Assembly: GCA_903825435.1 (NCBI GenBank) | Contig: CAIKAP010000165.1 | Location: forward strand, 1-42,279 | Direction of reading: 5' to 3' | DNA from: an uncultured Verrucomicrobiota bacterium | Lineage (GTDB): Bacteria; Verrucomicrobiota; Verrucomicrobiia; Palsa-1439 | Length of the DNA stretch: 42,279 bases | The notes under the pieces: generated by a model | The model's database searches: none | What the model was told of the DNA's origin: nothing | Seen by the model: the letters and a program-made list of their open reading frames with translations, nothing else | Position numbers and translations under genes: made by a program | Shown: positions 3,326 to 5,591 of the stretch, one piece after another | Layout: each line of letters opens with the position of its first letter | How positions within the stretch are numbered: the stretch's first letter is position 1

Positions 3326-5591
3326 CCTTCGCGATCAAATCCGTCGCCACGACCACCTCTACTACGTCGAGGCGCGTCCGGAGCTTTCCGACTACGACTA
3401 CGACAAACTTTACGCCGCACTCCAGAAACTCGAAGCCGAGCACCCGGACCTCGTCACGACTGATTCTCCGACTCAACGCGTCGGCGGCGCGCCGTTGAAG
3501 GAGTTCAAGAACGTCCGACATCCCGTCCCGATGCTCTCGCTGGAAAAATCCGACACCCTTGATGCGCTCCGCAAATTCGACGCTGACGTGAAGAAACAGT
3601 CGCCGGGCGAGGAAATTGAGTACGTCCTCGAACCCAAAGTAGACGGCGTCTCCATCTGTGTCCGGTACGAGCACGGCCAACTCGTCCTCGGCGCGACGCG
3701 CGGTGACGGCCAGACCGGCGACGACATCACCGCCAACATCAAAACCATCAAAGCCATCCCGCTTTCCCTTTCCAAGCCCGTTACCCTTGAAGTTCGCGGC
3801 GAAGCCTACATTCCGCTCGATGCTTTCGACAAACTGAACGCCAAGCTCCGCGACACCGGCGAGAAAACTTTTCCGAACCCCCGTAATGCCACTGCCGGCA
3901 CGCTGAAGCAACTCGATCCACGCGTTGTCGCCACGCGCCCACTCAGTGCCGTCTTCTACGCCGTCGTTGGTGGTGACTTCACCACCCACGCCGAGGCGCT
4001 CAATCACCTCAAGACTCTCGGTCTAGCCACGCCACCCCATTGGGTTTGTCGGAGTATGGATGAAGTCCTCGCGCGCTACGACAAAGACATCGTAGCCGGC
4101 AACGACGAGCCCCGCGACCTCCGCACCAAAGTTCCGTACGAACTCGACGGCATCGTCGTCAAAGTCAACAGCCTCGACCAACAGCGCCGCATCCCGCCGA
4201 AAACCAAAGCGCCCGGCTACGCCATCGTGTACAAGCCCGAACACTGGATCAAACCCGCCGAGACCAAGCTTCTCGGCATCACCATCCAAGTCGGTCGCAC
4301 CGGCATCCTCACGCCCGTTGCCGAACTCGAACCTGTTTTCGTCCAAGGTTCGACCGTCGCCCGCGCCACGCTCCACAACGAGGAGGAAATCAAACGTAAA
4401 GACATCCGCATCGGCGACACCGTCATCATCCGCAAAGCCGGCATGGTGATTCCCGAAGTCGTCGAGGCCGTCGCCGCCAAGCGCACCGGCAAAGAGAAAC
4501 TGTTCCACATGCCGAAGGAATGCCCCGCCTGCGGCGGCCCCGTGAACCGCGACCCCGAGTTCGTCGCGTGGCGTTGCGAGAACATCGCCTGTCCCGCGCA
4601 ACTCAAGCGCACGCTCCAGCATTTCGCCCAGCGCGGCGCGATGGACATCGAGGGCCTCGGTGAAGAATTGGTCAATATACTGGTTGAAACAGAGTTAGTT
4701 AAAGATGTCTCAGATTTGTACACACTGACCGTTGAACAGTTGGAGCTTTGGCGAATCTTTGATTCTCTGCTAAAATGCATCCTTCGTCGGCGTCTTCCCA
4801 ATAAGAAGATCAAGACATACAGGAGGGTTGCTAAATCTGTCTCTTTAGAACTCGCCAAGAGATTCCACAGTTTCGATGAACTTTTGTCAGCAGGAGTGAG
4901 AGAGTTGGCAAAATGCTTCAATCCCACTATCGCTGCCAATAGAGTTCACGCATTTCTACACGATCCACTGAAACAAGAAGTGGTTAAACAATTCAAAACA
5001 GAACGTGGGCTTGCCGCTACAAATGTCGCTACAGCCATAGCCGGTAGCAAAGATCGCGAACTTTGGCGACTCCTCAACGGTCTCGGCATCCTCCATGTCG
5101 GTGAAGAAGCTGCGCGCAAACTGCCGGAACATTTCCGGAGCATGGACGCCCTTGCCGCCGCCACCGTTGAGGAACTTCAGAAGGTCGAGGATGTCGGCCC
5201 CGTTATGGCGGAGTCCATCCACGATTTCTTCCGCAACCCGCGCAACCAAGCTGTCCTCAAGAAACTCAAAGCCGCCGGACTGAATCCAAAATGTAGGAGC
5301 GACCTTCCGGTCGCGACCGGGCCATTTTCCGGCAAAACCGTCGTGGTCACCGGCACGTTGGAGAAGTTTAGCCGCGATGAAGTGAAGGAAGTACTACGTA
5401 GTGCTGGAGCTAACGTCACCAGTAGCGTCAGCCGAGAAACCGACTACCTCATAGTCGGCGAAGAGGCTGGTTCCAAGCTAGAAAAGGCACGCGAATTAGG
5501 CGTCAGGGTGATTTCAGAAAGAGAGTTTTTGAAGATACTTGGTTCTCAGCCTGAGAAGAAGCCTGAGGCCAAGCAAGGCCAGTTGCTCTAA
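3291..5591 (+). CDS. ligA: NAD-dependent DNA ligase with internal domain duplication
   Basis: Seals nicks in duplex DNA in replication and repair, using NAD. Order: Ia domain (HDHLYYV, YDKLY), adenylation domain with catalytic Lys116 in KVDG, OB fold, zinc finger (CPACG, then CENIACPAQ, around residues 415-435), HhH region and C-terminal BRCT (about 677-755). Length is 766 residues against about 670 usually. The extra roughly 90 residues lie after LTVEQL and resemble the following stretch: [10 protein letters not shown] and [13 protein letters not shown] match [10 protein letters not shown] and [13 protein letters not shown], so a piece of the HhH region appears duplicated. That insert (about 4655-5040) is visibly AT-richer than its flanks. 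A dispersed hairpin repeat also lies in the coding sequence at 5292-5316, just before BRCT. The start overlaps the vanZ-like gene. Confidence 0.93.
5292..5316. repeat. GC-rich hairpin repeat inside ligA
   Basis: The sequence GTAGGAGCGACCTTCC is followed by GGTCGCGAC. GCGACC (5299-5304) pairs with GGTCGC (5309-5314) around TTCC. It is translated as CRSDLPVAT in the linker between the ligase HhH and BRCT domains. The form is that of a dispersed REP-like element. Only one copy is in this window, so its repeat status is from memory of similar genomes. Confidence 0.5.

Follow-up and report, generated by a model that had tools for sequence, protein, structure and literature searches.

The ligA gene in the 42,279-nucleotide stretch of DNA analysed here (the window), from an uncultured Verrucomicrobiota bacterium, encodes a DNA ligase with an additional block at its HhH domain, which raises the question of what this block is, where it came from and whether it is wreckage or a retained part of the enzyme. 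LigA is normally conserved and present in single copy. An extra half-domain in its DNA-gripping domain would test how far the clamp can be remodelled; according to PMC10504179, the HhH motifs of LigA contact both minor-groove strands, and clamp closure takes place between the NTase and HhH domains. The features concerned are the following.

3291–5591, + strand: ligA, NAD-dependent DNA ligase of 766 residues, the sole LigA match in the genome
4518–4598, + strand: C4 zinc finger, intact (aa 410–436; Pfam PF03119, 27.5 bits against a cut-off of 25.8)
4644–4742, + strand: N-terminal part of the HhH domain, conserved, single copy (aa 452–484)
4659–5060, + strand: tract of low third-position GC (0.38–0.42), from a GC3 scan
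4743–5000, + strand: extra block (aa 485–570), between TVEQL (ending at aa 484) and ERGLAATNV (aa 571–579)
4743–4823, + strand: initial 27 residues of the block (aa 485–511), basic, beginning ELWR like the downstream copy
4824–4997, + strand: 58 residues of the block (aa 512–569) homologous by sequence comparison to HhH3–HhH4, hairpin glycines lost
5001–5027, + strand: HhH1 (aa 571–579), remodelled, ERGLAATNV against ERMAEKSATNV on comparison with relatives
5046–5279, + strand: ordinary HhH2–HhH4 region, the downstream copy (aa 586–663)
5319–5534, + strand: BRCT domain (Pfam PF00533, aa 677–748)

Position and rarity of the extra block

A search of the whole genome found one LigA only, the one further match being the BRCT of the neighbouring exonuclease gene. 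The protein passes both NCBIfam equivalogs (PRK07956, 775.8 bits, cut-off 369; TIGR00575, 736.8 bits, cut-off 444.45), and all of its Pfam domains exceed their cut-offs (adenylation 234.2, OB 119.7, C4 zinc finger 27.5, HHH_2 101.5 and BRCT 57 bits). KVDG at residues 116–119 fits KxDG, the adenylation motif of NAD-dependent DNA ligases. The domain order (adenylation, OB, zinc finger, HhH, BRCT) is that of known LigAs (PRK07956/TIGR00575; 1dgs and 1v9p from T. filiformis and 2owo from E. coli), on which the canonical HhH domain superposes as modelled. The window LigA departs from them at HhH1, where it carries an additional block of about 86 residues and where the hairpin is remodelled; HhH2–HhH4 are intact, and the N-terminal part of the HhH domain (aa 452–484) is identical to nine relatives at 23–27 of 34 positions.

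A sequence-only reading had described the ligase as about 90 residues longer than usual, with the extra part following LTVEQL. The excess is real: the DIEG-to-BRCT stretch has 225 residues against 144–146 in standard-form family relatives, a net gain of 81. The span proposed for it, 4655–5240, covers the extra DNA at about 4743–5000 but also takes in 5061–5240, which is the normal downstream copy. Tblastn alignments to family relatives stop at query residue 484/485 and restart at 575, and at the block site most standard-form family relatives have TVEQL-AGLERMAEKSATNV or a close variant of it.

None of the ten other family genomes examined carries the block, so that it is not something all relatives share; the HhH region is of the standard kind in eight of them and of another, longer form in two (G004 and G008). 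(The family and the order are represented by the same 11 genomes in the set compared.) Among 384 genomes of the class, the own genome included, 15 match the 91-residue block at E ≤ 0.01, with a full-length match in the own genome only; among 387 genomes of the phylum, a draw that overlaps with the former, two match at 0.001, the own genome being one of them and the other match falling short of full length. No credible match was found in one scan of viral contigs, in phages or in plasmids, and a viral or plasmid source was rejected on this ground. The matches listed in a broad contig scan are ordinary LigAs aligned on DIEGLGEE, from query residue 1, and constitute weak evidence of absence. A search for a second copy of the tract elsewhere in the genome found none, and none of the titles listed from full-text searches of the open-access literature describes a duplicated HhH unit in LigA. 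The window LigA is a one-genome variant of a thoroughly familiar enzyme, unusual but probably modest.

A block present in only one genome, a 242-contig metagenome assembly with 3.14% contamination, and in no family relative could be an assembly chimera or consensus error. This is improbable, however, given that the reading frame is open through the insert, both junctions are in frame without stops, the homologous content is ordered and there is no second LigA in the assembly; a splice of two normal LigAs would, moreover, retain the hairpin glycines. With its bases shuffled, the insert stays open in just 70 of 20 000 shuffles. A frameshifted normal ligA was also considered and rejected: stops interrupt each of the five other frames of the insert, and no HhH1-like sequence was seen in them by eye. 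Nor was a self-splicing or structured RNA indicated, there being no Rfam match in 3000–7000 up to E 1.

Homology, motifs and predicted fold

The extra part had been proposed to be a diverged copy of the region that follows it, giving a second HhH-like unit, and comparison bears out the first of these points. The insert shows 33% identity to the window's own downstream HhH region (E 0.001) and matches the same region of the G003 LigA with an E-value of 3.6e-5. Searched with a profile built from 37 standard LigA HhH regions, the window LigA gives two matches, the upstream copy together with the conserved N-terminal part scoring 62.3 bits and the downstream copy 158.2 bits; the insert alone scores 27.9 bits. 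Residues 512–569 align with HhH3–HhH4, their identity to nine relatives averaging 28.5%, and reach 27.2 bits with the LigA HhH profile, while no profile-detectable homology to LigA was found for residues 485–511. As judged from these alignments, the inserted block shares descent with the HhH3–HhH4 half-domain of LigA, securely so for the 58 residues 512–569 alone. The first 27 residues can be aligned in two ways, either colinearly with HhH1–2 and with an eight-residue deletion, as favoured by the profile and MAFFT alignments, or with ELWR matched to ELWR and about 16 residues added in HhH3, as favoured by Smith–Waterman and fold alignment. Eleven Lys/Arg residues, counted from the translation, lie within aa 488–515.

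The motif state is a different matter. When the block is aligned with 31 LigAs, two glycines of HhH3 and HhH4 that are invariant in all 31 correspond to A and P in it; GLGI is missing from the block (MAFFT alignment), and glycine-bearing hairpins such as those of LigA HhH3/HhH4 are absent. Over 33 strongly conserved columns the block retains nine of the 18 that are hydrophobic or Ala and three of the 15 others, a small contrast. Pfam HHH_2 scores the block at 17.9 bits, below its cut-off of 27, and on its sequence the block would not pass as an HhH domain. A second HhH-like unit is therefore present by descent, over 58 residues, but not by motif.

For the C-terminal half, a model was built from an alignment with 31 relatives, all of which lack the block; its mean pLDDT is 87.6, with ten-residue means of about 69–86 in the block, which is predicted to be entirely helical. 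The model superposes on T. filiformis LigA (1v9p) with a Z-score of 19.5 and an r.m.s.d. of 1.8 Å for 182 residues; since these are spread over model residues 4–269, the block is looped out, and the model places it as a helical bundle at HhH1. Below the LigAs, the VIA-align matches of the whole C-terminal half are mostly BRCT chains. Modelled alone, the upstream copy has a pLDDT of 76.2 and a pTM of 0.58, and its best VIA-align match is LigA HhH3–4 (1dgs residues 502–577; Z 9.4, r.m.s.d. 1.8, 74 aligned). This fold match is not independent proof, because the modelling alignment consisted of LigAs, and a plain Foldseek search with the same model found nothing significant (none below E 1.5). An unrelated fold, which would speak against duplication, was thus not shown, with the reservation that applies to a model built on a LigA alignment with a null Foldseek result. 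The upstream-copy model also bears a weak predicted likeness (Z 5–7.5) to the (HhH)2 domains of UvrC, XPF/ERCC1 and FANCM; unlike these, the block is without hairpin glycines, and it is nearer to LigA in sequence and fold.

Constraint, base composition and origin

The simplest origin would be a plain tandem duplication of about 89 codons, from the HhH1 hairpin to the end of HhH4, with the upstream copy decaying neutrally, held in frame since ligA is essential, and turning AT-rich by drift to mutational equilibrium. The MAFFT and profile alignments, colinear with the whole domain apart from a gap of 8–9 residues, agree with this (89 − 8 gives the net 81), and four-fold-site identity to six relatives (0.38–0.59) indicates time enough for strong decay. 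Of three nearby intergenic gaps, two resemble the insert in GC (0.44 and 0.48) and the third (0.53) does not. The observed profile score, however, disfavours neutral decay. HhH codons of nine relatives were randomly redrawn without stops until the identity was matched, with three base compositions and 900 decays each (814, 810 and 786 yielded a score). None of the 2700 reached the real 27.2 bits of the 58 residues, the maxima being 17.2, 23.1 and 13.2, under a model in which sites change independently and by simple redrawing. An earlier simulation over all 85 residues gave 0 of 540 (498 scored), and the replacements in the 58 residues are milder than in the simulated decays (mean BLOSUM62 −0.14 against −0.83 to −0.85). 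The absence of decays at the real score implies that the 58 residues diverged under constraint and are not neutral wreckage. Tandem duplication followed by neutral decay is thus held to be unlikely, and the description of the insert as old and decaying is not supported; duplication of the HhH3–HhH4 half itself retains its support from the sequence. Constraint at the level of the fold could have acted before the block entered the window ligA.

The inserted DNA is, as had been noticed, poorer in GC than its flanks: third-position GC is 0.41 in aa 485–574 and 0.75 in aa 1–457. The best low-GC3 segment comprises codons 457–614, with a log-likelihood gain of 24.6 against a permutation maximum of 9.0 (n = 60, coarser grid). 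Twenty-six codons of the low-GC3 tract fall in the conserved left flank, where GC3 is 0.42; for the same codons, two of nine relatives (G009 and G007) also give 0.42 and the other seven 0.58–0.88. The GC3 step itself is strong. Because the low left-flank GC3 recurs in two of the nine relatives and two AT-rich intergenic gaps lie nearby, a foreign donor is not claimed, and foreign origin is weakly supported. The low GC3 could reflect an AT-richer donor within the family or drift towards the mutational composition of the genome.

A piece of ligA imported from a distant or viral donor would account for the step, and in a ranking of 52 sequences by similarity to the 58 residues a planctomycete LigA (L060) takes second place. 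Of the top seven, six nevertheless belong to the own family or are the own copy, with mean Smith–Waterman scores of 74.9 for eight family sequences against 44.4 for 43 others, and the viral, phage and plasmid searches gave no credible match. Such an import is accordingly rated a small likelihood, and of the earlier suggestion of acquisition from a divergent ligA, the distant donor has become the less likely part, L060 notwithstanding. The only repeat found as a possible mobile-element signature is a 15-nt, 87% direct repeat (4743 and 5058), about the level estimated for chance, and no inverted repeats occur at the block ends.

The preferred reading, to which about even confidence is attached, is that the block is a diverged HhH3–HhH4 half-domain, duplicated or recombined within the family ligA pool, inserted at HhH1 and kept as a helical scaffold. 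It would have arisen by duplication or by out-of-register recombination between ligA alleles of the own family. The ligA of one family member, G004 (L011, contig C164), is a chimera: residues 1–390 are nearest to the standard-form G003/G010 and those from about 391 are nearest to G008, which has the LNLGT form described below. The break is sharp and lies before the zinc finger. By this sequence pattern, subject to the 53% completeness of the G004 assembly, ligA is recombining in the family of the window.

Possible role and variation of LigA in the class

The window LigA is most likely a working ligase that, on the model, displays a helical bundle at HhH1. The 58 residues may have been kept by selection for the helical fold, with the standard hairpin contact to DNA lost. 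Together, the residues flanking the block would rebuild the canonical HhH domain, which would still clamp nicked DNA, and the block would lie outside that domain as a scaffold or spacer. A more ambitious proposal, regarded as rather doubtful, makes the block an add-on in which the basic stretch (aa 488–515) replaces the hairpin, giving a putative extra arm of the clamp that contacts DNA or a partner, derived from duplicated HhH3–4 and spread by recombination of the family ligA.

A second kind of enlarged HhH region occurs in the same class. An LNLGTxxEPR HhH1 with a longer HhH region is found in 15 of 41 class LigA loci (L011, L012, L015–L017, L021, L023 and L032–L039), in which HhH1 to the BRCT motif spans 164–199 residues (L023 reaches 387, and for two of the 15 no value was obtained), compared with 116–117 in three standard sequences. 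This form resembles the window LigA in that its HhH region is enlarged and differs in its HhH1 and in carrying the extra length between HhH3 and HhH4, at another site and with another sequence. In L023 (G013, contig C20) about 270 extra residues lie between HhH3 and HhH4; they appear coiled-coil-like by eye and contain an internal repeat (TATDPRDKSRLREMLVGLRPL/TASDPVEKNRLRELFIGLRPL). Together, the block, the chimeric G004 ligA and the enlarged HhH regions suggest that the DNA-binding half of ligA in this class recombines and tolerates insertions, which would matter for the use of ligA as a vertical marker.

The neighbourhood of the gene also varies. A DnaQ-like exonuclease gene with a C-terminal BRCT (5601–6566, − strand; PRK06195-like, 301.5 bits, below the cut-off of 373; about 50% GC) separates ligA from an isochorismatase-like gene; in G002 and G010 the latter comes immediately after ligA. 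Relatives repeatedly have BRCT-bearing open reading frames downstream of ligA or close to LigA matches (L151 at 4044–5036, L033, L152 and L153), and in G001 the second BRCT of one such frame is 54% identical to the BRCT region of the window LigA. On the other side of the gene, a 554-residue open reading frame (1183–2847, − strand) resembles, by eye, an N-acetylglucosamine kinase fused to a MurQ-type etherase.
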